DNA of 64,000 bases from Rhodococcoides kyotonense. GTDB lineage: Bacteria > Actinomycetota > Actinomycetes > Mycobacteriales > Mycobacteriaceae. A program made the translations under genes and the position numbers. The stretch's first letter is position 1; every line of letters starts with the position of its first letter. Positions 23,778 through 63,714 of this stretch are shown here, in pieces. The notes under the pieces are model-generated. The model did no database searches and was not told the origin of the DNA. It worked only from the letters and a program-made list of their open reading frames with translations. The stretch is taken from assembly GCF_900188125.1 (NCBI RefSeq), contig NZ_FZOW01000015.1, positions 62,001-126,000 of the forward strand, written 5' to 3'.

Positions 23778-23779
23778 AG

Positions 23780-32553: not shown

Positions 32554-32642
32554 CACTTCTCCGTAACTCCAGAAGTCGGCCGCCACCCGCGGCACGAACA
32601 AGACACGACCTGGTCGCTCCCGCGGCCGAAAGGATCTCCATC

Positions 32643-36780: not shown

Positions 36781-36810
36781 CTCATTCCCACATCGAGAGA
36801 GAGACCGACG

Positions 36811-47101: not shown

Positions 47102-47461
47102 GTTTTCTCCCTACCGCGATCGAATCGCGCATTCTTGAAACTGAGGTCTACGTCACTCGGACTCTATAAGCGCTGCAATGTTCTAGCAAGACGTTCATAA
47201 GTATGAATTTTGATTCATTTCTTCCCGGACCGGACCGTGAGTAGTATTCCGAATACTAGTTCATGATTCTGAACCTACCGGAAGAGCGTGTGGTACTACT
47301 GATCACGGAACGGCTGGCTTCCACTTGCTGACAGGCGCAGGCCGAAAACACCACAGCGGTCACGTACAACCGGATTTCGCTTGCCGAACGTACTCTCGAC
47401 CTCGCAACCGACATTCGGCGAGGTCCGACTGCAGTGGCCGGACTCGACGAAAGGGTGTCGC
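47102..47461. promoter_or_regulatory. divergent promoter region with a 17-bp palindrome
   Basis: This 360-bp gap separates CaiB (minus) and the VOC protein (plus) and holds no gene. TAGTATTC-C-GAATACTA (47242-47258) is a perfect palindrome with one central base. It is followed at once by GTTCA-N6-TGAAC (47259-47274), which uses the half-sites of the TGAAC regulon in everted order. Both may be operators. Confidence 0.5.
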
Positions 47462-48367: not shown

Positions 48368-48384
48368 TACCGTTCGAACGGTAT

Positions 48385-48416
48385 GGCGTCGGCAGGCCGT
48401 CAGGCCCGCCGACGCC
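48385..48416. terminator. hairpin terminator spanning the TetR stop
   Basis: The arms GGCGTCGGCAGGCC and GGCCCGCCGACGCC form a 14-bp stem with a single A-C mismatch around the loop GTCA. It ends the VOC transcript and overlaps the last codons of the converging TetR gene. A 14-bp palindrome, ACCGTTCGAACGGT (48369-48382), stands just before it. Confidence 0.8.
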
Positions 48417-49380: not shown

Positions 49381-49436
49381 GCCCACCTCCTCGCATCGTT
49401 CACCCACCTGACCGATTCAACGCCATTCCGGCAAAT

Positions 49437-49450
49437 TGAACGATCGTTGT
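49437..49450. promoter_or_regulatory. TGAAC-N4-GTTCA regulon site (weak copy)
   Basis: TGAACGATCGTTGT keeps the left half-site and three bases of the right; it also contains the perfect palindrome AACGATCGTT. It lies 57 bp before the tailed TetR gene, which fits autoregulation. Confidence 0.4.
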
Positions 49451-49531
49451 AAAAAATGAGCGTACCTCAGCGACACACGAAAGTACGGTGACGACACCGC
49501 ACCGGCAGGCAAGCCTCGACCACTCGCCGAC

Positions 49532-50335
49532 TTACTTCGGCCCGAATCCGGCACCTCGTAACAGCGGCGCAATCGATCCCAGGTCCGCCCCGGTCGCCGC
49601 GGCCACCGCATGCACGACATCGACGTCCTTATTCAGAAACTCCGCAACCGATCGGCCGAACGACTCGGCGCCACCGCTCGCTTGGACGCCGGCGAGCGCG
49701 TAACTGTCTGCGCTTCCCACCCGAAGGCAGTCGATCATCGTCGATTCGTTCATGCCCAATTCGATTCCGAACGTGGTAGCAGCGGTAATGATCTCGATGT
49801 TCGCCAGGAACACCGCATTGTTGACCAACTTCATCGACTGTCCCGATCCCAACGGTCCCACGTGTCGGATCGGATCGGCATACAGCGACATGATCGGGAC
49901 GGCGTCCGAGACCGCGGGTCGACTGCCTCCGACGAACACTGTGATGCTTCCAGCCGCGATATCGTCGGGACCACCGCTCACCGGTGCATCCACCACCGAG
50001 ATATCCCGTCCAGCCAGCGACGCATCGATCTCCTGGACCGTGTGCGGACTGCCGGTCGTATGCACGATGAGGACGGATCCGGCACTCATCGCGTCCATGA
50101 GGTCGTTGTCGAAGCAGATCTCGCGCACCTGCTCGTCCTTGTGCACACACACAATCACAGCCGAGGCACCAGTTGCGACAGCATCGGCACTGTGCACGGG
50201 TATGGCACCTGCATTCAGGACCGCCTCGGCATTCGCCTCGGACCGAACCAGAACGCGCACGTCCTCACCCGCTGCTGCAAGCCGCGTCACTATTGGCATA
50301 CCCATTCTGCCCGCACCTACGAAACCGATGCTCAC
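49532..50335 (-). CDS. beta-hydroxyacid dehydrogenase (3-hydroxyisobutyrate dehydrogenase family), copy 1
   Basis: The 267-residue protein starts at the GTG at 50335, overlapping the upstream copy's stop as GTGA. IGFVGAGRMGMPIVTRL is the NAD(P) motif, DAPVSGGPDD the substrate-binding motif, and GSGQSMKLVNN carries the catalytic Lys. It is a complete but short member of the family. With the next gene it forms a tandem pair of related enzymes that could act on two hydroxy acids or form one hetero-oligomer. Confidence 0.88.
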   Translation of the reverse strand: MSIGFVGAGRMGMPIVTRLAAAGEDVRVLVRSEANAEAVLNAGAIPVHSADAVATGASAVIVCVHKDEQVREICFDNDLMDAMSAGSVLIVHTTGSPHTVQEIDASLAGRDISVVDAPVSGGPDDIAAGSITVFVGGSRPAVSDAVPIMSLYADPIRHVGPLGSGQSMKLVNNAVFLANIEIITAATTFGIELGMNESTMIDCLRVGSADSYALAGVQASGGAESFGRSVAEFLNKDVDVVHAVAAATGADLGSIAPLLRGAGFGPK

Positions 50336-51246
50336 GACGCCGAGACGCCTTTCCGCGATGTGGCGACGTCGCGCGGATGCTTCAGAAGCCGCAACGCATC
50401 GTCCGCCGCGGCCCACACTGTGTGGCCGGCAGACTCATCTGCACCCGCTGCCACTACCTCGGCGAGAATTCCGACGTCTTTGCGCAGAAGCACGCCGACC
50501 GACTCCGACATCCCCGCGAGATCGCCTCCGCTAGGTCCCACGACCTTCAGGGCGAAGCTACCTGCCGTGCCGTTGGCCATGACGTCGGCCAACCGGTGTG
50601 GGTCTAATCCAAGCGATCTTCCGATTGCGAGGATTCCTGCAGCCGTGCTCAGCTGCGCCGCGAACACCGTGTTGTTCAACAACTTCGTCACTTGGCCTGC
50701 ACCCAGAGAGCCCATATGGGCGATCGGATTCGCGTACGTTTCCAAGATCGGCCTGAAACGATCGACAACCTTGTACTCGCCACCTGTCATCACCAGCAAC
50801 CGCTTCTCCGCCGCCGCAATGCCACCGCCGCTCACGGGCGCGTCTATCAGATCGACACCCACCTCCGCGCACGCCGCAGCGAGCCGGTTGCATGTTTTCG
50901 GGTGGACGGTGCTGTGAATCGCAATCGCACCTCCCGGAGCCATGCCTGCCAACACTCCCGCTTCTCCCGTCACGACCTCTTCGACACCTGCATCATCGGT
51001 GACGCAGATGCACACCAGATCACTGACACGTCCCAGTTCAGTAGGAGTGAGGGCGTAAGCGGCCGACGTGTCCGCGTATTGCGCCAACGTGGAGGCGCTA
51101 CGCGCCCACAGCGTCAGGGTGAACCCGCTCTCGACTATCCGACGAGCCATGGGGCCTCCCTGGCTGCCGAGGCCGATAAACCCGACACGAACGTCGGCGT
51201 CCACCCCCGATGCTTCCGCAGCAGAGTCGGTTACAGGTGCATTCAT
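50332..51246 (-). CDS. beta-hydroxyacid dehydrogenase (3-hydroxyisobutyrate dehydrogenase family), copy 2
   Basis: The 304-residue protein has GFIGLGSQGGPMARRIVESG near residue 22 (Gln in place of the usual Met after GLG), DAPVSGGGIAAAEK and GAGQVTKLLNN with the catalytic Lys. It starts at ATG 51246 after GGGAG and is the first gene of the operon with copy 1 and probably the tailed TetR. An operator site lies at 51299-51312, shared with the divergent MaoC pair. In a pathway releasing propionyl- or isobutyryl-type units, such enzymes oxidise 3-hydroxy acids. Confidence 0.88.
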   Translation of the reverse strand: MNAPVTDSAAEASGVDADVRVGFIGLGSQGGPMARRIVESGFTLTLWARSASTLAQYADTSAAYALTPTELGRVSDLVCICVTDDAGVEEVVTGEAGVLAGMAPGGAIAIHSTVHPKTCNRLAAACAEVGVDLIDAPVSGGGIAAAEKRLLVMTGGEYKVVDRFRPILETYANPIAHMGSLGAGQVTKLLNNTVFAAQLSTAAGILAIGRSLGLDPHRLADVMANGTAGSFALKVVGPSGGDLAGMSESVGVLLRKDVGILAEVVAAGADESAGHTVWAAADDALRLLKHPRDVATSRKGVSAS

Positions 51247-51409: not shown

Positions 51410-51925
51410 GTGACCGAAACCCACATCACCACCGCCATGCGGTCGGTCGTCGGCGTCGAATTTGCCAGTTCGACCAGCTTTCCCATAGCCAAATCCGATA
51501 TCCGCCGGTGGGCCGTTGCGGTGTACTACCCCGATCCGCCTCCTCAGTATTTCTGGGACGACACCATCGACGAAGCTTCCCCCGAGCTCACTGCACCCGC
51601 AGAATTCAATCCCTTTGCATGGATGTCCTCCCACGGGCCCGCGCGCGCGGACGACACGGGGGGTGCCGACGATCCCGACTATCAATTCACGATTCTCGGC
51701 GTCGAAGGGCCAGGCTTGAAATTTCAGGTCAACGGTGGCATGTCGGTCACCTACGGAGTGCCCATGAAGTCCGGTGATGTGATCACCGCGTCGCTGTCCA
51801 TCGCCGAACTCGGCGAACGCACCGGAAGACTCGGCTTGATGCTCCTTAAGACCACCGAAGCCGTGTGGACCAATCAGGACGGCGCCGAGGTCAAGCGCGA
51901 GCGAATGACCATCATCAGCTACTGA
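51410..51925 (+). CDS. MaoC-like hydratase subunit (FAS1-like dehydratase half)
   Basis: The 171-residue protein starts at a GTG after AAGGACAG. It has the hot-dog texture of the non-catalytic partner in split MaoC hydratases (SSTSFPIAKSDIRRWAVAVYYPDPPPQYF, FNPFAWMS, LKFQVNGGMSVTYGVPMKSGDVITA). The N-x4-H hydratase motif is not visible; that lies in the next gene. In steroid degradation the corresponding protein ChsH2 carries a C-terminal DUF35 domain, which is absent here and is instead fused to the aldolase at 54697-56367. Confidence 0.85.
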   Translation: MTETHITTAMRSVVGVEFASSTSFPIAKSDIRRWAVAVYYPDPPPQYFWDDTIDEASPELTAPAEFNPFAWMSSHGPARADDTGGADDPDYQFTILGVEGPGLKFQVNGGMSVTYGVPMKSGDVITASLSIAELGERTGRLGLMLLKTTEAVWTNQDGAEVKRERMTIISY

Positions 51926-51940
51926 AAGCCGAGATCAGCC

Positions 51941-52360
51941 ATGACCGACACCGTCTTCACCCTATCGATCAACGACGAGCTCCCGCCCTTCATCCGCGAA
52001 ACCGGGCTTGCGAACTGGAATCGATTCGCCGCCGTCAACAACGAATTCATCGACATCCACATGGACGACGACGCCGGGCGCGCCGCCGGCTACGACTCGG
52101 CGTTCGGAATGGGCAATCTACTGTGGTCCTACATGCACAGTTCACTACGCCAGTGGCTCGGATCCCGCGGAAGGATACTCGCAGTCAGTTGCCAGTTTCG
52201 CGGTCCGAACACCAAAGGGATGACGCTGACTGTCCGCGGATCCGTCTCCTCGATCCGAGAAGTGGACGACCACCGTGAGGTCACGTTCGATCTGTGGATC
52301 GAGGATCAGCACGGAAACAAGCTGACTCCGGGGAACGCCACCGTCGCTCTGAACCACTGA
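51941..52360 (+). CDS. MaoC-like hydratase subunit (catalytic half)
   Basis: The 139-residue protein contains FAAVNNEFIDIHMDDDAGRA, the hydratase-2 motif with the Asn/His dyad, followed by GYDSAFGMGNLLWSYMHSSL and a RFRGPN-like strand (CQFRGPNTKGMTLTV). It starts 15 bp after the partner gene. Together they should hydrate a 2-enoyl-CoA (as ChsH1-ChsH2 do for a steroid side chain), making the 3-hydroxyacyl-CoA that the Ltp2-like aldolase could cleave. Confidence 0.88.
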   Translation: MTDTVFTLSINDELPPFIRETGLANWNRFAAVNNEFIDIHMDDDAGRAAGYDSAFGMGNLLWSYMHSSLRQWLGSRGRILAVSCQFRGPNTKGMTLTVRGSVSSIREVDDHREVTFDLWIEDQHGNKLTPGNATVALNH

Positions 52361-52380
52361 CCTGCCCAGTAAGAACGAGG

Positions 52381-52420
52381 GAAGCCATAGGCTGCAGATG
52401 TACTCGCTGCCCATGGCTTT
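52381..52420. terminator. hairpin, candidate terminator between MaoC and TetR
   Basis: The arms GAAGCCATAGG and CCCATGGCTTT pair over about 9 bp with one mismatch around an 18-nt loop, in the 76-bp gap between converging genes. Moderate strength. Confidence 0.45.
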
Positions 52421-52436
52421 CGGTCTCCCGACATCA

Positions 52437-53195
52437 TTACTCCGTTAGTATTGCGCTCTCTTCTCTGGGGCGAGTAGAAAACGTATCGTGCAAAAATTGC
52501 AGGAAGCTTTCGGTATCGGTCAACCACATGTCGGCGGATTCGGTCCGTTGCCCCATCGACGTGACTAGTACGAATGCCATCAGCACTGCCTGATACAGAC
52601 GAGCAAGAGTCTCGGGTGACCCGGGGCGCAATGTCCCTTCTCTCTGCCCCTTCTCGATGACCTCGACCAGGAACAGGTGTACCCGCTGACCATGATGGCG
52701 CCAGGGATCAGGCACGACGCCACCTCGTGACCTGGCGATACGCGAGACCTCAGCGGTCAACGCGCCCCACGCCAGGTGTTCGAGAGAATGTTCGACCCAA
52801 ATGTCCGCCAGGGCTATCAGACGGTCGTCTCCAGCCATCGCGTCGGGAAGGCGTTCCCGGATCTCCTCCAGAGCGATACTTCGACGCATCAGTACCTGCT
52901 CGTACAATTTGTCCTTGTTCTCGAAGAAAGAGTAGATCGATCCAACCGAGTACTGGCACCTCACAGCTACGTCTTTCAGACTGGTTTCGTAATATCCACG
53001 CTCGGCGAACAACTCCTCGGCAGTATCCAGGATCTGTTCCTTCGACATCTCGATACGTTGTTGTCGGCGAGCTTCTTTGGGGCTCGGCGGGGCCGTATCG
53101 TTGCTGGGGCGGTCGATCGCGCTCGGTTCACCGGCGCCGATGGCGGGAGTCGTCATTGCCTGGGCATTGTCCGTCTGCGCCCGCGTATTCGTCAC
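52437..53195 (-). CDS. TetR family regulator (paralogue of 48400-49380)
   Basis: The 252-residue protein has the helix-turn-helix at about 50-100 (EQILDTAEELFAERGYYETS, YSVGSIYSFFENKDKLYEQV) and a C-terminal domain very similar to the TetR at 48400-49380 (EVSRIARSRGGVVPDPWRHHG, EGTLRPGSPETLARLYQAVL). The first 40 residues are polar but not basic. It starts at a GTG after GGGAG and is the last gene of the minus-strand operon hydrolase, small protein, ligase, DUF35-aldolase, carboxyltransferase. The two paralogues may share one operator family. Confidence 0.9.
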   Translation of the reverse strand: MTNTRAQTDNAQAMTTPAIGAGEPSAIDRPSNDTAPPSPKEARRQQRIEMSKEQILDTAEELFAERGYYETSLKDVAVRCQYSVGSIYSFFENKDKLYEQVLMRRSIALEEIRERLPDAMAGDDRLIALADIWVEHSLEHLAWGALTAEVSRIARSRGGVVPDPWRHHGQRVHLFLVEVIEKGQREGTLRPGSPETLARLYQAVLMAFVLVTSMGQRTESADMWLTDTESFLQFLHDTFSTRPREESAILTE

Positions 53196-53248
53196 GGCAT
53201 TCTCCCGTCTCTTCTACCTCTGTCCCCTGAGTCGATCGATGCCGCACC

Positions 53249-54700
53249 TCAGGATCGGTGAATCCATCTACGTGTGGCGCCATCCCACCGCACCGAACGC
53301 TCGCCAGGTACTGCGGCCTGAAACGCCTCGACCAACCTGCGACGAACGTCGACCAGAACGGCGGCGCTGACCGGCTCGGGCAATGTGCCGTCGCTGATAC
53401 CGAAGTCCGCCAACTCGGCGCTGCCGATCTTGAGTGCGCGTCCCGCCTCCAGCGAGCGGGACGAGTCGCGCCACAGAATTACCGCTGCCGCTTCCGGGCC
53501 GATCACCGAGAAGACAGAGTCCTTCAGAAGGAACAGCCGATCGGTGTGCGCAAGCGCGATTGCGCCTCCACTTCCGCCCTCGCCCACGCACACACAGACA
53601 CTCGGCGTCGGCAACTCGTCCAGAACTCGCAGAGTCTCCGCAATCTCGCGGGCGATTCCACCTGACTCCGAGATCGGGCCAGGCGCAGCACCAGGTGTAT
53701 CGACCAGCGTAAGGAGCGGAAGAGACAATTTTCCTGCCAGTCGAATTGCACGTTGAGCGAGTCGATACGCCTCGGGGCCCTGTCCTGCCTTCGCGTCTCC
53801 GTGCGCATGCCGATCCATTGCGACGACGATGCATCTCATACCGGACACAGTGGCCAAACCCGCGCGTATCGAGGGATCGGAGCCCTTGAGCTCGACCCAC
53901 GACTCGGTCAGTCCGCCTGCCCATTCCAGCCCGGAGGGGCGCCTCGGCGCCCGAGCCCGCTCGACGGCCGACGCGTGCGAGCCGAGGCGATGCGATTCAC
54001 ATCCGATCACGGACGGCCGATCCACCGGCACCTGCAACGGCGTCTCGACGGCGCCCAGAACCGAGGCGATCCAGCGATCCTTGTCCGTCGAGGCAACGAT
54101 TGCATCGACGAGGCCCGCACGACAGGCAGAGTCTGCGTTGTGTGAGTCAGCGGGAGGGCGCATCCCAGTCATCTCTTCGACGACGCGTGGGCCCGCGAAT
54201 CCGATGGTCGCACCGGGCTCGACCGCACGCACGTCCACCAACGACGCCCACGAGGCGAAGACCCCACCTGCGGTGGGAGAGCCGATATAGCCCAGCGACA
54301 GTAGCCCCGCGGCGGCGTGAGCGTTGAAAGCCGACACGACCCGAGGCATCTGGACGAGCGAAAACATTCCCTCCTGCATGCGAGCGCCACCGGTACGCAC
54401 CGATGCCACCACCGGGAGTCGCTCCCTCGCAGCGCGCCGAAATGCGCGTGACACCTTTTCTCCCACAACCAAACCCATGCTTCCGCCGAAGACGGAGAAA
54501 TCACTGTCGATCACGGCGCACGGCACCCCGCCGACCACCCTGAGTCCGGTCCTCACAGCTTCGCTCGAATGGCTGGCCTTCTCCGCGCGGTAACCGGGGA
54601 ACTCGAGCGGATCACCTGCGACGAGATCACGGTCCCACTCGTCGAGCAGCGCTGTGGTCGAATCCGCGATATCCGACGTCGGAAGCGCCGTCGCGCTCAT
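53249..54700 (-). CDS. acyl-CoA carboxylase carboxyltransferase, fused beta/alpha type (AccD3-like)
   Basis: The 483-residue protein has two crotonase-like carboxyltransferase halves. The N-terminal one has FSVFGGSMGLVVGEKVSRA, RTGGARMQEGMFSLVQM, SPTAGGVFASWASL and EPGATIGFAGPRVVEEM; the C-terminal one has QGPEAYRLAQRAIRLAGKL, TLVDTPGAAPG and VGEGGSGGAIALA. Layout and text resemble mycobacterial AccD3. No biotin carboxylase or biotin carrier is in the window, so it depends on subunits encoded elsewhere or acts as a decarboxylase or other CoA-ester enzyme. It overlaps the aldolase gene by four bases (ATGA). Confidence 0.87.
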   Translation of the reverse strand: MSATALPTSDIADSTTALLDEWDRDLVAGDPLEFPGYRAEKASHSSEAVRTGLRVVGGVPCAVIDSDFSVFGGSMGLVVGEKVSRAFRRAARERLPVVASVRTGGARMQEGMFSLVQMPRVVSAFNAHAAAGLLSLGYIGSPTAGGVFASWASLVDVRAVEPGATIGFAGPRVVEEMTGMRPPADSHNADSACRAGLVDAIVASTDKDRWIASVLGAVETPLQVPVDRPSVIGCESHRLGSHASAVERARAPRRPSGLEWAGGLTESWVELKGSDPSIRAGLATVSGMRCIVVAMDRHAHGDAKAGQGPEAYRLAQRAIRLAGKLSLPLLTLVDTPGAAPGPISESGGIAREIAETLRVLDELPTPSVCVCVGEGGSGGAIALAHTDRLFLLKDSVFSVIGPEAAAVILWRDSSRSLEAGRALKIGSAELADFGISDGTLPEPVSAAVLVDVRRRLVEAFQAAVPGERSVRWDGATRRWIHRS

Positions 54701-56367
54701 TGGTCGACTCGCAGTAACATCGCGCCGCTCGGTGTGAGACCACCACTGCTCACCACACCGACGCGCGCACCGAGCACCTGACGGTCGCCGGCCTCACCCC
54801 TCAGCTGGCTCACCGCCTCGACGAGCAGACCCATTCCATGAGTGCGTCCGTGCGACAACTGTCCTCCATTCGTGTTCAGCGGAAGAACACCGTCGCGCGC
54901 GATGTTCTTGCCGCCGTCCAGGAAGTCCTTTGCCTCGCCGATTCCGCAAAATCCGAGCGCCTCGATCCACGACACACAGTTAAAAGTGAACCCGTCGTAG
55001 AGTTCGGCGACGTCCACATCGCCTGGGCGTAGATCGGTTCTCGACCACAGGTGTGCGGCAGGTCCCAGAACCTGTGGTTCGTGGGTCGAGGTGCTCTGAT
55101 CCCACTCGAGTCGCTCGAGAATCTGGGTTCCCACAGCCTCCACACGAACGGGGGTTCCAGCCAGGTCGCCAGCGGTATCGGCAGCCGAGACGATTACTGC
55201 GACTGCCCCGTCGCAGGGTACGTCGCAATCGTAGAGCCCGAACGGACTCGTGATTGCGCGAGCGCCGAGGTAGTCGTCCATAGTGATGAGATCGCGATAG
55301 ATCGCAGTCGGGTTGAGTGCCGCGTTGGCACGCTGGTTGATGGCGACCCACCCCAGCGTCTCCCTGGTAGTTCCGTACCTCGAAAAGTGTCGATGAGCGG
55401 TCTGCGCCAACGTGTGTGCTGCAGACGTCGCACCGAATGGCATCGACCACCCCATTTGGCCGGAGATGCGGCTCATCCCCGGTTGGGCGAGGCTGCCGTC
55501 GCGGATTAGTTGGTCGTGTGTGGACTGCCAGACTGTACGGAAGCACAGAACGTGCCGCGCAAGTCCCGCCGAAACCGCAAGCATTGCGGCAACAACCGAA
55601 CCGCCGGGCCCGAACGTTTCGCCGCCGCCGTTGTACCAGGTCGGCTTGATTCGCAGCACGGATTCGACCGCCGTGACGCCACCCTCGCTGTGCCCGGTCT
55701 CCACTCCCCCGGCAGGGTACGTCGACAAGCCGTCGATGTCATCGAAGCTCAGACCTGCGTCGGCGACGGCCCGCTCACATGCCTCGATCGTCAATTCCAA
55801 TGGGTCTGCCATGAGTCGGCGTCCCATCCGCGACGAACCGATTCCGCTGAGTACTACATCGTCTTCGAACTTTTTCGTGGACAACATCGGACGGACATGC
55901 TTGGCGTAGTCGCCCGGAGCGATCGTGTCCTCGGGCAACTCGACGGGTTCCAGCCCACCTGCAATGGGCCGAAACAGCGGAAGCCACACGTCCTCCACGT
56001 TCTCGAATACCACTTCCATCGGCATTCCGAGGCGAAGGTCACGCGGTTCGCACTCGACAAGTCGGGTCGTCAGACGGACCGAAGGATCCTCGTCGAGCGC
56101 AACTTCGGCGACGACATACGGCGCCGAAACTCCAGGAATGGCGAATCGCTCGTTCACTGTGAAGCCGAACAGAATTGCTCTACCCGACAGCACCCGATTC
56201 TCGGTATCCGCCCCGCTGCAGTCCGGGCACCGCGGTTTGGGCGGATGGATCAGTGCTGAACACGACCGGCAAGACTGAACTCTCAACCGCCCGTCGCGTC
56301 CCGAGGTCCAGAAGAACTCGGTTTCGGGGAGCACCAGCGGCAACAGGTGTGCTAACTCGTCGGGCAT
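54697..56367 (-). CDS. fusion of DUF35 protein and Ltp2-like thiolase-fold aldolase
   Basis: The 556-residue protein has at 1-135 a DUF35 unit: zinc ribbon Cys33, Cys36, Cys47, Cys50 (CRSC, CPDC) then an OB-fold (GRAILFGFTVNERFAIPGVS, PYVVAEVALDEDPSVRL). From about 172 it is a lipid-transfer-type thiolase fold (ISGIGSSRMGRRL, DVDVAELYDGFTFNCVSWIEALGF, LNTNGGQLSHGRTHGMG). Where a thiolase has its Cys, it reads NGGGETFGPGGS, without Cys. This matches the Ltp2/SCP2-like retro-aldolases of steroid side-chain degradation, which need a DUF35 partner. Here the partner is fused in front. Confidence 0.9.
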   Translation of the reverse strand: MPDELAHLLPLVLPETEFFWTSGRDGRLRVQSCRSCSALIHPPKPRCPDCSGADTENRVLSGRAILFGFTVNERFAIPGVSAPYVVAEVALDEDPSVRLTTRLVECEPRDLRLGMPMEVVFENVEDVWLPLFRPIAGGLEPVELPEDTIAPGDYAKHVRPMLSTKKFEDDVVLSGIGSSRMGRRLMADPLELTIEACERAVADAGLSFDDIDGLSTYPAGGVETGHSEGGVTAVESVLRIKPTWYNGGGETFGPGGSVVAAMLAVSAGLARHVLCFRTVWQSTHDQLIRDGSLAQPGMSRISGQMGWSMPFGATSAAHTLAQTAHRHFSRYGTTRETLGWVAINQRANAALNPTAIYRDLITMDDYLGARAITSPFGLYDCDVPCDGAVAVIVSAADTAGDLAGTPVRVEAVGTQILERLEWDQSTSTHEPQVLGPAAHLWSRTDLRPGDVDVAELYDGFTFNCVSWIEALGFCGIGEAKDFLDGGKNIARDGVLPLNTNGGQLSHGRTHGMGLLVEAVSQLRGEAGDRQVLGARVGVVSSGGLTPSGAMLLRVDQ

Positions 56368-56451
56368 GTCTTTTCCTTTGGACGACGGCGTTCGAAACCG
56401 GCGGTCGGACCCCGAACCGGCAAGAGGTCGTTGAATGTAAGAGACCTGAGA

Positions 56452-57921
56452 TCACAGCAAGCGCCGCAGAAGCTTTCCCGTGTCGGTGCGAGGAAGTTCA
56501 TCGTGAAAGATGACGTCGTCCGGTGTTTTGGACGACCGAAGCTTCGACCGAACCCAGGCACGTACATCATCCACCGACAGCGTCTTGCCGGGATAGAGTA
56601 CGACGTGGGCAGCGATGCGCTGGCCCCAGTCGTCGTCGGCAACACCGACAACACCTGCGTCCGAGACGAATTCGTGCGCCACGATCGACTCCTCGATCTC
56701 GGCCGGTGCGATGTTCTCACCGCCGCGGATGATCGTGTCGTCCATGCGTCCCTCGATGAACACGTACCCGCCGCCGTCCACGTACGCCTGATCGCGGGTG
56801 TGAAACCAACCGTCATCGGACAAAAGGCTTCCTTTGCCGAGGTATTCGCCCGATACCTGGGGGCCTCTGACGCGTAACTCGCCGCGGATGTTGGCTTCGC
56901 ACTGATTGCCGTCTTCGTCGAACACTCCGATGGTGACGCCCGGAACAGGCCTACCCACGGATCCCAACCGCGCGCGCACGGCAGGATCCCCGGAGGCGAA
57001 CGCCTCACGATGCTCGTCCGGTCCCAGCAACGCGATTGTCGATGCAGTCTCCGTCAGACCGTACGCGTTGACGAAGCCAGTGTTCGGAAACGCGTCGAGA
57101 GCCTGCGCCAGTACTGTCACGGGCATCCGTGCTCCACCGTATGAGATCGCCAGTACTGGAGGCGATTTCTGCTCGTGTTCCGTCAGGTAGTCGCAAATTC
57201 GTGCAAGCATCGTGGGAACGACCATGGAGTGAGTAACTCCTTCGGAATCGGCCATGTCCAACCACACTTCCGGATCGAAGCGATCGAGATAGACCAGCCG
57301 CCGCCCGGCGTACAGGTTCGAGAGTAAGTTCGCCACCGCGGCGATATGATACGGCGGAACACTCACCAAGCTGGCCTGTGATGGACCGCCAGCGCCGAAC
57401 TCGACCGTCCCCAGTATGTAGGAGACGAGGTGGCGATTTCGCAGCACGGCCGCCTTCGGTGCCGCTGTGGTTCCGCTGGTGTACAACAGGACCGCGATGG
57501 CCTCTGCGTCCATATCGCGATCTTCCAGTGGCGCCGTTGTCGCGGCCGCATCCAACCACTCGTTGGGTCCGTATACAGCGCCCGCCGTAGTGACTCGACC
57601 CGGCTTGTCCGCGATCACAATCGGACGTTCGAAGCTACCGACCAGCTCGGCCAATTTGTCGTCGGCCAGCCGGTAATTCAGAGGCACGAATGGAATCCCA
57701 GCTCGGGCAGCCGCGAAGAGTGCCACGGGAAGAGCCACACCGTTGACACCGATGAAGAGAATTGCGTCCGACTCTGCCTCGACTGCGAGTCGAGCACCTC
57801 CGCCTGCCATCGATCCCAACTCGCCGTAAGTTGCACGACGAATACGGTTGGAGTGCTCGACAATTGCGGTTTCGTCGGGCCAGCTTGCCGCTGCCATCGA
57901 CAGTAACATTGCGACGTTCAC
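56452..57921 (-). CDS. acyl-CoA ligase (AMP-dependent synthetase)
   Basis: The 489-residue protein starts at the GTG at 57921 after GAAGGG; the frame is open to 58047. It has the adenylation motif LLYTSGTTAAPKA, VSVPPYHIAAVANLL, the NAYGLTETAS motif, GWFHTRDQAYVDGGGYVFIEGRMDD and the C-terminal catalytic-Lys segment LPRTDTGKLLRRLL. It resembles medium-chain or cyclic-acid CoA ligases of actinobacterial degradation clusters (FadD3/FadD13 type). It would activate the carboxylic acid entering region 4. Confidence 0.92.
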   Translation of the reverse strand: MNVAMLLSMAAASWPDETAIVEHSNRIRRATYGELGSMAGGGARLAVEAESDAILFIGVNGVALPVALFAAARAGIPFVPLNYRLADDKLAELVGSFERPIVIADKPGRVTTAGAVYGPNEWLDAAATTAPLEDRDMDAEAIAVLLYTSGTTAAPKAAVLRNRHLVSYILGTVEFGAGGPSQASLVSVPPYHIAAVANLLSNLYAGRRLVYLDRFDPEVWLDMADSEGVTHSMVVPTMLARICDYLTEHEQKSPPVLAISYGGARMPVTVLAQALDAFPNTGFVNAYGLTETASTIALLGPDEHREAFASGDPAVRARLGSVGRPVPGVTIGVFDEDGNQCEANIRGELRVRGPQVSGEYLGKGSLLSDDGWFHTRDQAYVDGGGYVFIEGRMDDTIIRGGENIAPAEIEESIVAHEFVSDAGVVGVADDDWGQRIAAHVVLYPGKTLSVDDVRAWVRSKLRSSKTPDDVIFHDELPRTDTGKLLRRLL

Positions 57922-57959
57922 GTGTGCGCCCTTCGGCCGGTTAGTGATGAATCGGACGG

Positions 57960-58268
57960 TCAGTCGGATGCAGGCAACGGCTTCGGCGCCTTGAGCTGAA
58001 GAGGTCGGTCGCCGAGCGAGAGTCGACCGGCACCTGGGCTGACGCACAGCACCTCGACTGTGCCGTCCGCGTCCTCGTAGCGCTTCCCCATGTCAACTTT
58101 GGCTCCGTCGGACGGGCCACCTGAGGCGGGAACGAGATCCTCGCCGTCACGCACCAGAACGACTCCGTCGCAGGCGATGTCGGCATCGCCCTTGCCCGCC
58201 CGCACTACGACTACCTGCACTGTGGACACTCGGCTACGCAACCGCTCGCCGACCTTGTACTCAGCCAT
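57960..58268 (-). CDS. conserved small protein of unknown function (ligase-linked)
   Basis: The 102-residue protein starts at ATG 58268, overlapping the hydrolase gene by 8 bp. It is all-beta in appearance: YKVGERLRSRVSTVQVVVVRAGKGDADIACDGVVLV, then a short loop, VDMGKRYEDADGTVEVLCVSPGAGRLSLG and LQLKAPKPLPASD. No catalytic motif or membrane segment is visible, and there is a single Cys in IACDG. I do not recognise a named family with certainty, but the sequence has normal codon use and sits inside a tight operon, so it is real. It may be a binding or accessory subunit of the neighbouring ligase or aldolase. Confidence 0.82.
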   Translation of the reverse strand: MAEYKVGERLRSRVSTVQVVVVRAGKGDADIACDGVVLVRDGEDLVPASGGPSDGAKVDMGKRYEDADGTVEVLCVSPGAGRLSLGDRPLQLKAPKPLPASD

Positions 58269-59148
58269 GTGAATCCTCCAATAGTTTTTCGTTTCGGCCG
58301 GCCGATTGTCGGCTCAGCACACATTCCTCGACGAACGCGAGGACTTTCAAGTGGTAGGCCAGTGCGGCGTTCCCCAAACTGACGTTGTGACCGGAACCGA
58401 TCTGTTCATCGACTTCGGTCCGCACCGAGGCCGTGAACAGCGACGACATTCCGACCAGGCCCGGTTCGCCGGACTGCCACCAGGATTCGTGATCACCCAG
58501 CGAGATACGGACGGGGACCGAAACATTCGGGGCAGACCGTGCGAATTCGGCCGGCCAGGCAAGCGCATCCTCGCCGTCGTACGCCGGAGCCCGACTGGAT
58601 ACAGGTTCTTGCTGCGGGTAGAGTCCCGCCGGTTGCCACAGCAATTCCCGCAGCAGGCCGGCGGCCTGCTCGACGTCACTTGTTCCCAACCTGCGTACAG
58701 CGTCGGAACGTCGGTTGTGACGAATGCCGGTTCCCGCCATCTCGATTCCGAGGAGATCCGAACCCCGAGGGTCGACCGCCATGCGAAGGGCGAGGACACA
58801 GCCTTGGGAGTGACCGACGAGAAAGCAACCCGCGCCCCGGTCGAGACCCTGCAACGCAGAATCGACGACACCGTACGACAGTGCAACCTGACGATCGGGA
58901 TCGATCCGCTCACCGAGCATCTCCCGCGAACTGCCGTAACCCGGCCGGTGCGGTGCGATCACAGAGAAGCCGAGCGACGCGCCCACCTGCATCAACGAGT
59001 GCCTCGAATGACCGGGAGCGTCGAAATAGTCCGGCCGTGATGCGCCACCGTGCCATGCCACCACTACAGCCCGAGGGTCCGGAACCGAAGACACTAGCCC
59101 GGACATCGGTATACCGTCCACGTCCACCTGGAAGTTCTCCGGAATCAC
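58261..59148 (-). CDS. alpha/beta hydrolase
   Basis: The 295-residue protein starts at the GTG at 59148, after AAAGGAG; the frame is open to 59211. VVVAWHGGASRPDYFD (oxyanion side), FSVIAPHRPGYGSS, the nucleophile elbow GHSQG and the late GSGHNVSLG with the catalytic His are present. It is the first gene of the six-gene minus-strand operon and is divergent from the SDR at 59313. It may open a lactone or ester so that the ligase can activate the acid (inference). Confidence 0.86.
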   Translation of the reverse strand: MIPENFQVDVDGIPMSGLVSSVPDPRAVVVAWHGGASRPDYFDAPGHSRHSLMQVGASLGFSVIAPHRPGYGSSREMLGERIDPDRQVALSYGVVDSALQGLDRGAGCFLVGHSQGCVLALRMAVDPRGSDLLGIEMAGTGIRHNRRSDAVRRLGTSDVEQAAGLLRELLWQPAGLYPQQEPVSSRAPAYDGEDALAWPAEFARSAPNVSVPVRISLGDHESWWQSGEPGLVGMSSLFTASVRTEVDEQIGSGHNVSLGNAALAYHLKVLAFVEECVLSRQSAGRNEKLLEDSHG

Positions 59149-59251
59149 GCCTTCTCCTTTCACCGTTCGCAGACAATCGTGGCCGTTCAAATAGTGATCC
59201 GACCGGCCCACAGTCCGAACCGGACCGCCTGGAACCGCTGGATCATTTTCC

Positions 59252-59265
59252 TGAGCGTCCGTTCA
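59252..59265. promoter_or_regulatory. TGAAC-N4-GTTCA regulon site (divergent promoter)
   Basis: TGAGCGTCCGTTCA matches the consensus with one change and lies between the hydrolase operon (start 59148, minus) and the SDR (start 59313, plus). Confidence 0.5.
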
Positions 59266-59312
59266 TTTTTTTGTAGACTAGCATGATCGTAGAAGACCGA
59301 AAGGTGAAACGA

Positions 59313-60071
59313 ATGTTCGAGTCGAACGGCAAAGTAGCTCTGATCACTGGCGCCGGGCGAGGAGTCGGCGCCGCTGTCGCAGAGATGCTGGCAGCACACG
59401 GTGCACTCGTTGCGGTGAACGACCTCAACCCCGACAGGGCGGCTTCGATGGTGGAGCGGATCGAGTCCGAGGGAGGCCGAGCTGTCGCGGTGCCGGGAGA
59501 CATCGCCGCCTACACTTCGGTCGAAGAAATTTTCCATCGCATCGCTTCGACGCTCGGGCCGGTCGATTTCCTCGTGAACAACGCCGGTATCCCAACCGCA
59601 GGAATCGAGCTGAGCTATTTCGCGGACACACGGCCCTCGGATTGGCAACCACTGCTGCAGGTCAACGTCGCCGGTGTCCTGAATTGCTGCCACCTGGCCG
59701 TGCCGGCGATGATCGAGAGGAAATGGGGACGCATCATTTCTATCTCCTCGGACTCGGCACGAACCGGTGAATCGATGATGGCCGTGTATGCCGCATCGAA
59801 GGCCGCAGGAGTAGGCCTGATCCGATCACTGTCCAAGGAGCTCGGGCCTCACGGGATTACCTGCAATACACTGTCTTTGGGCACAATTGCCAGTGAGGAC
59901 ACTCGATCGTCTGATCCCGAAAAGGTGGACCGTCACCTGCGCCGCTACCCGATGCGACGTCTCGGTACCGGCGATGACGTTGCTGCGGCCGTACTGTGGC
60001 TGGCCTCCGAATCAGGTGGATGGACCACAGGACAGACGATTCCGGTCAACGGCGGTTTCGCCGCCGGCTGA
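59313..60071 (+). CDS. short-chain dehydrogenase/reductase
   Basis: The 252-residue protein starts at the ATG at 59313 with AAAGG upstream; an earlier ATG at 59283 has none. It has TGAGRGVGAAVAEMLAAHGA, VNDLNPDRA (Asp after strand 2, NAD-type), NNAGIPTA, ISSDSAR and the catalytic YAASK, and ends VNGGFAAG. It stands alone, divergent from the hydrolase operon. It probably oxidises a hydroxyacyl-CoA or alcohol of the region 4 pathway. Confidence 0.9.
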   Translation: MFESNGKVALITGAGRGVGAAVAEMLAAHGALVAVNDLNPDRAASMVERIESEGGRAVAVPGDIAAYTSVEEIFHRIASTLGPVDFLVNNAGIPTAGIELSYFADTRPSDWQPLLQVNVAGVLNCCHLAVPAMIERKWGRIISISSDSARTGESMMAVYAASKAAGVGLIRSLSKELGPHGITCNTLSLGTIASEDTRSSDPEKVDRHLRRYPMRRLGTGDDVAAAVLWLASESGGWTTGQTIPVNGGFAAG

Positions 60072-60092
60072 CCGGAATCGCAGGGCTCCAGC

Positions 60093-61262
60093 TCACCCGA
60101 ATTTCGGCGCCCGAGGCAGGCGAAGATTGTGCTGCGCAACGATGTTGCGCGCGATGTCGGTGGTGCCGCCGTAGATGGCAGTGCCCTGAGCGAAGCGATG
60201 ACTCCACTCCAACTCACCGTCCTCGACTGCGCCTTCCGCACCTCGCGGTAACAGCGCAACCGGACCTACGAGGTCCAGAAGTTCTGCGCTCCTGGAGATG
60301 AGTAGTTCCGAAGAAATGACACGGCCCATCGGCCCAGGGACGTTACGGATCAACTCGACATCGGTGGCGATCTCGGCGAGTTTGTACTTGACGAGCACGT
60401 CGTCGAGCGGAGTGCCGCCATCCGGCGCTGTCGCGTTGGCCCACGACGTGGCGTGCCACAAAAGCTTCTGCAACGTCCAGCCATAGGTCGACCCATTGAG
60501 TTCGGAATATCCGTCGGCCTCCAGCACACCGTGCTCCACCTCGAGCGGCGCGCTCATGACGGCCCAGCCCTGGTCGACCGGTCCGAGGCGGTGGTCGTCG
60601 CCGACGAATACGTTGTCGTAGAAGACCGCGTTGGTGCGTTCGCCACCGAGCGTGTGTACCGGCTGGATTTCGACGCCGGGTCTGTCGAGCGGTACGAGGA
60701 AGATTGTGATGCCGCGATGCTTGGGTGCATCGGGATTACTGCGGGTGACCAAGATGCTGTACTGGCAGTTGTGTGCACCTGTGGTGAACATCTTCGCTCC
60801 GTTGATGATCCAACCGTCATCGGTGCGCGTTGCACGTGTACGCACGCCCGCCAGGTCCGAACCTCCGTCCGGTTCGGTGTACCCCAGGCAGATATTGATG
60901 TCACCGGCCGCAACGCCGGGCAACACTTTCTCTCGCAACGTGTCGGAACCGTAGGCTCGTACCACCGGCACCGTCATCGCCGTCGTGGACAGAGTTACGT
61001 CCGGAACATCTCGGCGACGCCGTTCGGTTGTGAGGATCGCCTCGCGGACGGGATCCAAGCCGGCGCCACCCTCCTCTACGGACCACGTTGGAAGTATCCA
61101 ACCACGCTCCCCCAGCGCCTTGTGCAACGCGTGATTGTGACCCGAACCGGTACGGCGTTCTTCCTCGAACACCTCTTCGGTTGCATGTTCGTCGAAGAAG
61201 TCGCTGACTTCGCGCCAGAACGCGCGCTGAGCTTCGGTCAACTCGATTTTTCCAAAATCCAT
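60093..61262 (-). CDS. acyl-CoA dehydrogenase, subunit with Gly at the usual catalytic-Glu position
   Basis: The 389-residue protein has ICLGYTEPDGGSDLAGVRT, WIINGAKMFTTGAHNCQY and a C-terminal YGGTTDIARNIVAQHNLRLP, where most acyl-CoA dehydrogenases have YEGT with the catalytic Glu. This Gly-containing form is usual in actinobacterial heterotetrameric enzymes such as ChsE1-ChsE2 and FadE28-FadE29, with the base provided from elsewhere. Its gene starts 26 bp after the stop of the other acyl-CoA dehydrogenase gene, so the two products should form one complex. Confidence 0.9.
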   Translation of the reverse strand: MDFGKIELTEAQRAFWREVSDFFDEHATEEVFEEERRTGSGHNHALHKALGERGWILPTWSVEEGGAGLDPVREAILTTERRRRDVPDVTLSTTAMTVPVVRAYGSDTLREKVLPGVAAGDINICLGYTEPDGGSDLAGVRTRATRTDDGWIINGAKMFTTGAHNCQYSILVTRSNPDAPKHRGITIFLVPLDRPGVEIQPVHTLGGERTNAVFYDNVFVGDDHRLGPVDQGWAVMSAPLEVEHGVLEADGYSELNGSTYGWTLQKLLWHATSWANATAPDGGTPLDDVLVKYKLAEIATDVELIRNVPGPMGRVISSELLISRSAELLDLVGPVALLPRGAEGAVEDGELEWSHRFAQGTAIYGGTTDIARNIVAQHNLRLPRAPKFG

Positions 61263-61288
61263 CTGAGGATCTCCCTGTCAGCGGATGG

Positions 61289-62341
61289 TCAGATGCCCGA
61301 GGGCATCGGAAGTGAATCGGCAACCGCGAGGAGTTCGCCTGCAGGCCGTCCCGCCAGCAGAGGCCATCCTTTCGCACGCCGAAAATGCAATGTCATATCG
61401 GACTCGGTCGTGAAGCCGAACCCACCCTGAACATGGATACCGACGGTTGAGGCCTTCGTCGCGGCCGCGCAAGCCGACACGTAGGCCTTTGGAACCAGTT
61501 CTCGTGCGGCCTCGGGCTCATATTCCACATACCAGGCTGCTTTGCGAACGAGATTGCGGCTGCCGGTCGCAAGAATCGCGGCATCGACCAACGAGTGCGA
61601 TATTGCCTGGAAGGTACCGATGAATTGCCCGAACGCTTTTCGACTGCTGGCAAAGTCGACACCGAGCCCCACCGTGGCATCCGCGGATCCGGTCAGCGCG
61701 GCAGCAGTCAACAACTTCCATACCCTGACCGCTTCGGTGAATGCGGCAACCGCATCGTCACCCTGAGCCAGAGTTTCGACGTCGTCTCCGATCGTCCACC
61801 AGGCGGCAGGCTGCCCTCCCAGGTTGGCCGCCTGCTCCACACCATCCGGGGCAGGCACCACAACCAACTCGTCCCCGCGCAGTGCGAGTGCAGCCTGTGC
61901 AATAGCACCGGCAGGCACCAGCTGTCGAGCTCTGTCCGGGTGAAGTGCGACGGTCAGCACGGTCTCACCCGACAGCAGTGGTCCCAGGAGCTCATCCGAT
62001 CGGCCCGCAGGCAACGCAGCCAAGAGGCGCGCTGCCGCAATCGCGTCGACCATCGGAATGGGAGCAAGCGATGCGCCATATTGCTCAGCGACAAGCACCA
62101 GGTCCACAACGGTCGCTCCGTCACCTCCCCTGGACTCGGGGACGGCCATAGTGACAACACCGATGTTCGATGCCTTTGCCCACAGGACCGGGTCGTATCC
62201 GAGCGGCTCGGCAGCCCGAACTACAGAACTCGACGCGACGCTCTGGAAAAAGTCGACGAAAACCTCCCGGACCGCTTCTTGTTGTTCGTCCAACGAATAA
62301 TCGTTGCGTCGTAATTCCTGCGGAAGCAGATCCCTCACCAC
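61289..62341 (-). CDS. acyl-CoA dehydrogenase, partner subunit
   Basis: The frame is open to ATG 62398, but a TGAAC-type operator (62363-62376) would then lie within the first codons. A GTG at 62341 gives 350 residues in line with the family (VRDLLPQELRRNDYSLDEQQ). The protein has the helical N-terminal domain and the C-terminal domain (LGVDFASSRKAFGQFIGTFQ, AISHSLVDAAILATGSRNLV, GFTTESDMTLHFRRAKGW) but a weak FAD/substrate middle segment. This is typical of the second subunit of alpha2-beta2 acyl-CoA dehydrogenases. Confidence 0.87.
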   Translation of the reverse strand: MVRDLLPQELRRNDYSLDEQQEAVREVFVDFFQSVASSSVVRAAEPLGYDPVLWAKASNIGVVTMAVPESRGGDGATVVDLVLVAEQYGASLAPIPMVDAIAAARLLAALPAGRSDELLGPLLSGETVLTVALHPDRARQLVPAGAIAQAALALRGDELVVVPAPDGVEQAANLGGQPAAWWTIGDDVETLAQGDDAVAAFTEAVRVWKLLTAAALTGSADATVGLGVDFASSRKAFGQFIGTFQAISHSLVDAAILATGSRNLVRKAAWYVEYEPEAARELVPKAYVSACAAATKASTVGIHVQGGFGFTTESDMTLHFRRAKGWPLLAGRPAGELLAVADSLPMPSGI

Positions 62342-62362
62342 ATCACCAACTTCGACTTGTTC

Positions 62363-62376
62363 TGAACAATCGTTCA
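62363..62376. promoter_or_regulatory. TGAAC-N4-GTTCA regulon site
   Basis: TGAACAATCGTTCA has perfect 5-bp outer arms. It lies 21 bp upstream of the proposed GTG start of the acyl-CoA dehydrogenase operon. Confidence 0.6.
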
Positions 62377-62470
62377 AACAGTTGTAGCACAAACACATTG
62401 AGATCGGCAGCGATTCGGCAACAGTTCGCGAACTGGAGAAACAGAAGAGTCATTGATTAATTCAATTCCC

Positions 62471-62541: not shown

Positions 62542-63714
62542 ATGAACGACGCAGTGATCGTCAGCGCGGTCCGCACCCCCATTGGCACAGCGTTCAAGGG
62601 CACCTTGGCCGCCACCCCCGCCGAAGATCTCGCGGTTCACATTCTCACGGAGTCCATTCGTCGGTCGTCTCTACCGCCGGAGTCGATCGACGACGTCATC
62701 TTTGCCGAATCCATGTACGGAGGCGGTGACCTCGCCAGACATGCCGCAGTAGCCGCAGGCCTCACCAGAGTGCCAGGGCAGGCGGTAAACCGACATTGCG
62801 CGGGGAGTCTGACCGCCGTCGGCAACGCGGCAGGTTCGCTTCGATCAGGAATGGACGAGGTCATCGTCGCAGGCGGAGTGAACTCCAGCTCACTGACGCC
62901 CAAGGTTATCTGGGCGATTCCGGGAACGAACCGGACCGAAACCCGAATCGCGCCGACATTTCCGTACACCGAGGACGCTGCAGACGACACATCGCTGTCC
63001 GTCGGATGGAATCTTGCACAAAAATACAATCTGTCCCGCGAGCGCATGGACGCCTGGGCCGTGCGCTCTCACGAGCGGGCGGTGGCGGCGATCGACGCCG
63101 GAAAATTCGACGACGAAATCGCGCCGATCAAGGTCACGACCATGGATGGTTCGGTCGTCGAGTTTGCAGTCGACGAGCACCCGCGGCGCACCACGACCCT
63201 GGAGAAGGCGGCCAGGATCAAACCCGTCCACCCCGAGATCGACGGATTTTCGATCACGGCCGCGAACGCCAGCGGCGTCAACGACGCCGCCGCAGCCCTG
63301 ACTCTCACCACCGCAGCGAATGCCGCCGCGCATGGGCTGCAGTCGCTCGGAACCGTGCGAGCCTGGGCATCGGTCGGCGTCGAACCGAAGTACACCGGCG
63401 ACGGAAGCTTGATGGTCATTCCGATCGTCCTCGAGCGAGCCGGTCTGCGGCCACAGGACGTTCACCTCTGGGAAATCAACGAGGCCTTTGCGTCCGTGCC
63501 TGTCTCGGTGTGCCAGGAGCTGGGGCTCGACGAGCAGATAGTCAACATTTATGGCAGCGGATGCAGCCTCGGACATCCGATTGCCGCAAGTGGCGCTCGA
63601 ATGCTCACGACACTCGCACACGAACTCCGTCGGCGCGGAGGCGGGATCGGTGTTGCCGCAATGTGTGCGGGCGGCGGTCAGGGCGGCGCGGTCGTCATCG
63701 AAGTTCAGAGCTGA
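62542..63714 (+). CDS. acetyl-CoA acetyltransferase / 3-oxoacyl-CoA thiolase
   Basis: The 390-residue protein starts at ATG 62542 after GAGGAAAC. It has the two catalytic Cys, Cys86 (NRHCAGSLTAV) and Cys375 (AMCAGGGQGG), the WEINEAFASVPV motif and the His in GCSLGHPIAASGARM. It is therefore a full degradative thiolase of the FadA type and should release acetyl-CoA from a 3-oxoacyl-CoA. It is followed 36 bp later by an SDR gene. Confidence 0.93.
   Translation: MNDAVIVSAVRTPIGTAFKGTLAATPAEDLAVHILTESIRRSSLPPESIDDVIFAESMYGGGDLARHAAVAAGLTRVPGQAVNRHCAGSLTAVGNAAGSLRSGMDEVIVAGGVNSSSLTPKVIWAIPGTNRTETRIAPTFPYTEDAADDTSLSVGWNLAQKYNLSRERMDAWAVRSHERAVAAIDAGKFDDEIAPIKVTTMDGSVVEFAVDEHPRRTTTLEKAARIKPVHPEIDGFSITAANASGVNDAAAALTLTTAANAAAHGLQSLGTVRAWASVGVEPKYTGDGSLMVIPIVLERAGLRPQDVHLWEINEAFASVPVSVCQELGLDEQIVNIYGSGCSLGHPIAASGARMLTTLAHELRRRGGGIGVAAMCAGGGQGGAVVIEVQS

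Follow-up and report, generated by a model that had tools for sequence, protein, structure and literature searches.

A DUF35 domain fused to a cysteine-less thiolase fold in Rhodococcoides kyotonense: a candidate carbon–carbon lyase and its gene neighbourhood

Organisation of the locus

The window considered here, i.e. the whole stretch of DNA that was analysed, comprises 64,000 nucleotides of Rhodococcoides kyotonense (contig NZ_FZOW01000015.1, positions 62,001 to 126,000) and is part of a 6.3-Mb genome. Its reverse strand carries, at positions 54697–56367, a single open frame of 556 codons in the open reading frame list, which joins a DUF35 domain to the N-terminus of a thiolase fold lacking the nucleophilic cysteine. 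An earlier note on positions 51410–62341 had described this fusion with its MaoC genes standing separately, and had read the surroundings as an igr-like module of steroid side-chain degradation in which DUF35 was shuffled out of the hydratase subunit ChsH2. The observation is confirmed by the open frame and its Pfam domains, and the reading is partly supported. The acyl-CoA dehydrogenase pair, two MaoC-like proteins, cysteine-less aldolase-like gene and CoA ligase listed there are all open frames whose families match. The same interval also holds genes which that note left unmentioned, namely those for a TetR protein, an AccD/AccA carboxyltransferase, a 102-aa protein, an alpha/beta-hydrolase and a short-chain dehydrogenase (SDR). 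Outside it, positions 45872–51246 encode a CaiB CoA-transferase, a VOC protein, a TetR protein and two 3-hydroxyisobutyrate-dehydrogenase-like (HIBDH-like) proteins, of which the CaiB and HIBDH-like ones recur near the fusion elsewhere. The features are as follows, with the basis of each assignment in brackets.

33734..35104 (+): cytochrome P450, ca. 20 kb from the fusion
45872..47101 (-): CaiB/BaiF-type CoA-transferase, recurring partner (family search, neighbourhood counts)
49532..50416 (-): HIBDH-like protein 1, recurring partner (family search, neighbourhood counts)
50332..51246 (-): HIBDH-like protein 2, recurring partner (family search, neighbourhood counts)
51410..51925 (+): FAS1_DH-type (FAS1_DH_region) hot-dog protein, putative non-catalytic partner (Pfam)
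51941..52360 (+): MaoC/HadB-like hot-dog protein (Pfam, 24.9 bits, under Pfam's 27-bit cut-off)
52437..53195: TetR protein, inside the interval of the earlier note
53249..54700 (-): AccD/AccA-fused acyl-CoA carboxyltransferase, 483 aa (open reading frame, Pfam, NCBIfam)
54697..56367 (-): fusion of DUF35 and cysteine-less thiolase fold (open reading frame, Pfam, PDB matches, alignment, model, Foldseek)
56452..58047 (-): AMP-binding acyl-CoA ligase (Pfam, NCBIfam)
57960..58268 (-): 102-aa protein (no Pfam or NCBIfam match)
58261..59211 (-): alpha/beta-hydrolase (Pfam)
59283..60071 (+): SDR (family search)
60093..61262 (-): acyl-CoA dehydrogenase A, ChsE4/Tcur3483-like (Pfam, PDB match)
61289..62398 (-): acyl-CoA dehydrogenase B, ChsE5/Tcur3481-like (Pfam, PDB match)
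62542..63714 (+): ordinary thiolase (NCBIfam AcCoA-C-Actrans, 360 against a cut-off of 240.55 bits)

Domain structure of the fusion

The DUF35 part of the protein (residues ca. 18–135) consists of a zinc ribbon and an OB fold, and the thiolase-fold part spans residues ca. 168–556. Pfam places zf-ChsH2 at residues 20–55, OB_ChsH2_C at 59–122 and Thiolase_C_1 at 442–547, the first two both above the Pfam cut-off. The ribbon has the ChsH2-type spacing Cys-x2-Cys-x10-Cys-x2-Cys, and its four cysteines (C33, C36, C47 and C50) are invariant in all 61 rows of an alignment of fused proteins (A3), composed of the window and 60 loci of the main sample. That sample consists of the best 80 of at least 577 related stretches confirmed by tblastn, each of the 80 aligning from fusion residue 1–10 to residue 552–556. 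A further 24 fused loci from additional genomes bring the number examined to 104, or 103 without a duplicate (L057 duplicates the DNA of L150 in the main sample). Recurrence of the same fusion in these loci, many of them actinobacterial, rules out a frame or assembly accident and answers the survey that had been proposed for it. The closest relative within the 80 is a Gordonia rhizosphera protein (77% identity).

The solved chains closest to the two halves are the two components of one complex, in line with the earlier description of the aldolase as Ltp2-like: in a PDB sequence search residues 172–553 best match TcLtp2 (6ok1_A, 2.2e-48), and the N-terminal residues 10–135 best match the DUF35 partner of Ltp2 (6ok1_B, 2.5e-16). 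Structure prediction of the fusion gave a good model, built from 70 aligned rows (mean pLDDT 89.6, pTM 0.91), which replaced a poor one made from 25 close sequences (pLDDT 42.8). Foldseek ranks 6ok1_A first for it (TM 0.87 by target length, 0.60 by query length), the top four rows being 6ok1_A, 6ok1_C, 4u4e and 9myr_A. In the model, the DUF35 and thiolase domains appear packed against each other within the single chain. No paper on a DUF35–thiolase fusion appeared among those listed by searches of the open PMC literature, of which PMC12502768 contains both “DUF35” and “fusion”. In each of the four plasmid records inspected that carry a fusion, it is annotated only as “OB-fold domain-containing protein”. 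By sequence, the clade to which it belongs is uncharacterised, its nearest characterised relatives being the DUF35-bound aldolases Ltp2 and Sal.

Active site

The most ordinary identity for a protein of thiolase fold with a Thiolase_C_1 match would be an SCP2-type thiolase, annotated here through distant similarity. At the nucleophile, HDxF and GHP-type columns of alignment A3, the nine thiolase-type rows have Cys in nine, His in eight and His in eight, respectively. Among the 61 fused rows, the nucleophile column holds Cys in none, the HDxF histidine is replaced by Tyr457 and the GHP-type histidine by Arg508 throughout. Neither the nucleophilic Cys nor the catalytic His residues of an SCP2-type thiolase are thus present, a plain thiolase is rejected as the identity of the fusion, and this explanation is extremely improbable.

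The fusion presents instead the columns Y457-D-G459-F, R508 and H510. Tyr457, Gly459 and Arg508 are identical in all 61 rows, and the same letters are constant in a second alignment of 18 fused and 15 split rows, i.e. those in which DUF35 and the thiolase part are separate genes. Relative to TcLtp2, the Tyr base is retained (motif YDGF rather than YDHF), while His296 corresponds to Gly459 and Tyr344 to Arg508; passages of PMC12329534 give the roles of these three TcLtp2 residues and the Tyr base of CtSal. The same three columns read Tyr, Ala, Tyr in IpfD and Tyr, Cys, Gln in CtSal. Judged by sequence, the active site therefore resembles neither that of thiolases nor those of the two aldolases that have been studied. 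It is not that of Ltp2, the fusion also falls outside the Ltp2 group in the tree described below, and membership of the Ltp2 type is rejected on two defining residues, the oxyanion-hole His of YDHF and Tyr344.

Such a site might serve another Claisen- or decarboxylation-type carbon–carbon reaction, with Arg508 binding a substrate carboxylate. Arg508 in place of the general acid Tyr344 and Gly459 in place of the oxyanion-hole His, constant in all fused and split rows, are consistent with this, as are partners that include HIBDH-like proteins and a carboxyltransferase. The Tyr base is invariant, however, the acyl-carrying Cys is gone, and the best-scoring relatives of known reaction are aldolases, so that chemistry of this kind is considered distinctly unlikely.

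Phylogeny and origin of the fusion

In a tree of 46 rows, the fused and the split members fall into a single clade (support 100/99), with the two Ltp2 rows outside. The tree tool flagged long branches (OWN_L093, IpfD, 7yvy, CtSal and others) and warned that two joins may be false, namely that of OWN_L093 with 7yvy and the one linking the fused/split clade to the two Ltp2 rows. Twenty of the 21 fused rows group together (100/99) and the remaining one, L075, lies among split rows; the fusion therefore arose at least twice or was undone.

The split loci suggest how it could have formed. Their DUF35 gene stands directly upstream on the same strand in 12 of 16, downstream in two and on the other strand in two, and at the 12 head-to-tail loci its stop lies no more than 24 bases from where, by extrapolation, the thiolase part starts. 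Because 12 of the 16 pairs stand in the order DUF35-then-aldolase, joining of adjacent genes is enough to explain the fusion. Transfer of DUF35 from ChsH2, the shuffling of the earlier note, is rejected as unneeded, the unfused sister pairs being adjacent. The genome also contains a separate igr-type set, in which an Ltp2 (L091, 3.1e-187 to 6ok1_A, ca. 35% identical to the fusion) has as neighbours acyl-CoA-dehydrogenase-like frames and two further frames, one of 303 aa that matches DUF35 and one of 126 aa. These are taken for the acyl-CoA dehydrogenases, ChsH2 and ChsH1 of the genome, respectively, the two hydratase frames being named by place, size and, for ChsH2, the DUF35 match. The window MaoC pair gave no blastp match to these two frames at 1e-3, which is weak evidence against a transfer, as hot-dog proteins diverge fast.

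Two other pairs were noted alongside. On a plasmid of Sphingobium sp. V4 (L181, 9016–10548), DUF35 and YDGF-type lyase genes are almost contiguous; this pair, in a record without annotation, represents the clade in unfused form in a proteobacterium. The genome of the window also encodes, on C24, another DUF35 and YDAF-type thiolase-fold pair (L092, 8994–10655), placed in the tree beside the uncharacterised 4u4e.

Gene neighbourhood across genomes

Neighbours were counted within 8 kb of the fusion by profiles made from small query sets, one long MaoC query being left out, and by blast; single-linkage clustering merged unrelated frames and was not used for the counts. The queries came partly from the counted loci (four of eight P450 queries from L108–L110, two of three hydrolase queries from L105 and L108). 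Genus labels were assigned by hand from record titles; by these labels, Mycobacterium, Mycolicibacter and Mycolicibacterium together account for 46 of the 80 main loci. Some stretches of DNA are common to L152 and L163. Controls were 40 windows of 17.65 kb at round coordinates in seven genomes of the 24-locus set, none of them from genomes of the main sample. The profile counts, in the order 80 main loci, 24 further loci and 40 control windows, are as follows.

P450: 73; 19; 1
HIBDH-like: 71; 18; 2
Alpha/beta-hydrolase: 65; 15; 0
Acyl-CoA dehydrogenase: 41; 17; 6
CaiB: 29; 11; 2
Aldehyde dehydrogenase: 27; 10; 2
Crotonase: 13; 4; 4
MaoC: 1; 3; 0

At the 65 main loci with both flanks complete, the corresponding numbers are P450 64, HIBDH-like 62, hydrolase 54, acyl-CoA dehydrogenase 36 and MaoC 0, and at 15 split loci P450 3, HIBDH-like 1, MaoC 5 and acyl-CoA dehydrogenase 8. 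MaoC counts may lean downward because MaoC domains are short. With blast at 40% identity, HIBDH-like 2 is found in 69 of the 80 loci (12 of 13 genera), HIBDH-like 1 in 49 (nine genera), the hydrolase in 64 (eight genera) and a Nocardia-type P450 in 26 (10 genera). A P450 lies no more than 400 bp upstream on the same strand in 25 of the 80 loci. In 64 of them the hydrolase follows downstream on the strand of the fusion, at most 400 bp away; in the window it lies instead three genes upstream. The nearest PDB chains of a P450 neighbouring the fusion, a CYP125 ancestor and P450cin, indicate no substrate. No paper on this P450/hydrolase/HIBDH-like neighbourhood appeared among those listed by searches of the open PMC literature. 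The window P450 (33734–35104) may be tied to the module by analogy with genomes in which a P450 adjoins the fusion.

Against this background, the genes of the window could still form a true igr variant, with CoA ligase, heteromeric acyl-CoA dehydrogenase, MaoC pair and fusion acting in series on one branched side chain, the fusion being functionally an Ltp2 with DUF35 in cis and the remaining neighbours serving other pathways. The acyl-CoA dehydrogenases speak for it, as their closest matches are the steroid heteromers ChsE4/ChsE5 (4x28) and Tcur3483/Tcur3481 (6wy8, 6wy9) and by sequence they would make the heteromeric pair of such a module. Another genome of the same genus (L054) has 16 of the 17 window genes tested together at 53–77% identity, with HIBDH-like 2 in two pieces and the TetR gene at 52437 not found. 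Elsewhere, an acyl-CoA dehydrogenase pair stands directly upstream of the fusion in two of 16 Nocardia loci, and MaoC pairs lie near it in L056, L058 and L113. Several observations stand on the other side. Both window hot-dog proteins are single-hot-dog and without DUF35 in Pfam, so that the igr arrangement of ChsH1 with a ChsH2 carrying a C-terminal DUF35 is lacking. The MaoC-like protein at 51941–52360 is a weak HadB relative which retains the motif His and has Glu in the Asp column, and its FAS1_DH-type companion gave no PDB sequence match. These genes stand on the opposite strand to the fusion and do not match the frames taken for ChsH1 and ChsH2, the active site differs from that of Ltp2, and an igr-type set with a close Ltp2 lies elsewhere in the genome. 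The Gordonia rhizosphera locus (L100) retains seven genes (fusion, thiolase, SDR, 102-aa protein, VOC, TetR and one HIBDH-like gene) and has no acyl-CoA dehydrogenase or MaoC match in 21.7 kb. Among the 104 loci, relatives (at least 40% identity) of acyl-CoA dehydrogenases A and B recur in three each, those of the second MaoC gene in three and of the first in two. The igr-like set around the fusion is real and, in the sample examined, complete only in the lineage of the window. An igr-like module as earlier proposed thus stands as regards the dehydrogenase pair, but not as regards MaoC, found near the fusion in one of 80 and three of 24 loci, nor in view of the second igr-type set, and a serial pathway of this kind is held to be rather improbable.

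Other neighbours are less widely shared. The start of the carboxyltransferase overlaps the stop of the fusion in ATGA (54697–54700), and its relatives lie near the fusion in only two of the 104 loci. The 102-aa protein has relatives (at least 28% identity) within 8 kb in 12 of the 104, recurring beside acyl-CoA ligases and near the fusion at some actinobacterial loci. The window alpha/beta-hydrolase gave no PDB sequence match and hence no hint of a substrate. Further away, at 40321–42003 (-), an FAD protein is near 3-ketosteroid-delta-1-dehydrogenase PRK12844 (718.7 against a cut-off of 789 bits) and also resembles 4-oxocyclohexene-carboxylate dehydrogenase families; the P450, a mycofactocin-type SDR (31956–33509) and two ferredoxin-reductase-like genes (35104–38007) lie close to it. 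The interval 22632–25051 (+) holds a second thiolase-fold gene, which is BbsB-like (343.4 bits, below the cut-off of 750) and retains the Cys, and next to it a CaiB-type CoA-transferase gene overlapping its end.

Proposed reaction

We lean, at somewhat better than even, towards regarding the fusion as a self-contained DUF35–thiolase-fold carbon–carbon lyase, likely a retro-aldolase, which was joined from adjacent genes and is probably P450-fed in other genomes. Retro-aldol cleavage of a 3-hydroxyacyl-CoA is favoured by the invariance of the Tyr, the absence of the Cys and the identity of the closest known enzymes. As regards reaction, order of steps, substrate and the role of DUF35, which we infer, a branched or ring-borne 3-hydroxyacyl-CoA would be cleaved, with Tyr457 deprotonating the beta-hydroxyl and with Arg508, together with backbone amides (perhaps His510), holding or protonating the thioester enolate. 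The DUF35 domain, packed on the thiolase domain in cis, may help to shape the substrate cleft, as DUF35 does in Sal according to passages of PMC12329534. The gene itself would have arisen by the joining of two adjacent ones.

That many genera encode a P450 close to the fusion points to oxygenation as one way of making the beta-hydroxyl. In other genomes it would probably be placed by the P450 encoded nearby, and the products would then be worked up by the alpha/beta-hydrolase and HIBDH-like enzymes. The lineage of the window would have added the heteromeric acyl-CoA dehydrogenase and MaoC pair, reaching the same hydroxyl by ordinary beta-oxidation, instead or as well, and the coupled carboxyltransferase could, at a guess, take up the released acyl-CoA. 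A hydratase-free route in full, in which a branched or cyclic acid, linked to CoA already or only later, is beta-hydroxylated by a P450 and then cleaved directly by the fused lyase with its new Tyr/Gly/Arg site, is put forward tentatively, as a possibility on the doubtful side. If it were true, the gene that carries DUF35 would follow the way in which the hydroxyl is made, with DUF35 borne by the hydratase if the hydroxyl comes from water (ChsH2, Shy), and either free or joined to the aldolase if it comes from an oxygenase (IpfE, the fusion clade).

A number of points weigh against the favoured lyase and its oxygenase supply. Two of the three TcLtp2 catalytic positions are altered (His296 to Gly, Tyr344 to Arg), therefore another carbon–carbon reaction is possible; His510, invariant in the 61 fused rows, is Asn in a fused plasmid copy (L097); and the best NCBIfam match reaches 250.9 where the cut-off is 469. 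The Ltp2 pair is the next to join the fused/split clade (96/75), a join flagged as a long-branch meeting. According to a passage of PMC11321319, DUF35 seems to matter little to how active Ltp2 and its hydratase are, and on that statement a catalytic role for DUF35 in the fusion is hypothetical. The module of the window has no P450 of its own, none of the 46 Mycobacterium, Mycolicibacter and Mycolicibacterium loci has one within 400 bp upstream, and the P450 count may lean upward because half of its queries come from three of the 80 loci. Acyl-CoA dehydrogenases lie within 8 kb in 41 of the 80 loci against six of 40 controls, and a dehydrogenase route is therefore possible outside the window too.

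The fusion clade is common in actinobacteria. A single-chain DUF35–aldolase would be a simpler tool for cutting or making carbon–carbon bonds than the multi-protein steroid complexes, and would allow a clean test of what DUF35 contributes to catalysis.

Comparison with known systems

The steroid aldolase Ltp2–ChsH2(DUF35) (6ok1) shares with the fusion a thiolase fold combined with a C4-zinc DUF35, a Tyr base in a YDxF motif (Y457 in 61 of 61 rows) and a mechanism that uses no acyl-carrying Cys. It differs in that its DUF35 belongs to the hydratase ChsH2 rather than standing in cis, and in having His296 and Tyr344 for Gly and Arg. The bile-acid aldolase Sal–Shy (9myr) is likewise a thiolase fold with DUF35 and a YDxY/F motif, with DUF35 on the MaoC protein Shy, at its N-terminus according to passages of PMC11321319. 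Where the fusion has Gly, Sal uses Tyr302/Cys304, and the zinc site of the Shy DUF35 is Cys3His1 instead of Cys4 (passages of PMC12329534).

With DUF35 in cis, none has to come from a hydratase, and the predicted independence of the aldolase from the hydratase complex for its DUF35 is supported to that extent. A DUF35 partner free of the hydratase is already known from ChsH4–Atf1 and IpfE–IpfD. In Mycolicibacterium neoaurum, a hydratase-free DUF35 protein, ChsH4, shares an operon with the Sal-like aldolase Atf1, itself 56% identical to Sal1 (passages of PMC10398937); unlike the fusion, the two are separate proteins.

During ibuprofen breakdown a dioxygenase places hydroxyls before IpfDE acts. 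The pathway may thus offer a parallel for an oxygenase-made hydroxyl ahead of a DUF35-linked lyase. IpfD is a thiolase-fold protein with a separate DUF35 protein, IpfE, and genes for a CoA ligase and a ring dioxygenase adjoin (pIBU218). It retains Tyr at the Tyr344 column of Ltp2, has Ala in place of Gly or His, and lies on a long branch outside the fused/split clade. Release of propionyl-CoA is described in passages of PMC9195938 and PMC11347016. Finally, BbsA–BbsB, the archaeal thiolase/HMGS complex and PhlABC also combine a thiolase fold with a DUF35 partner (PDB matches; passages of PMC12329534), but as separate chains and, by their depositors' names, with thiolase or acyltransferase chemistry, whereas the fusion carries the partner of its thiolase fold in cis.

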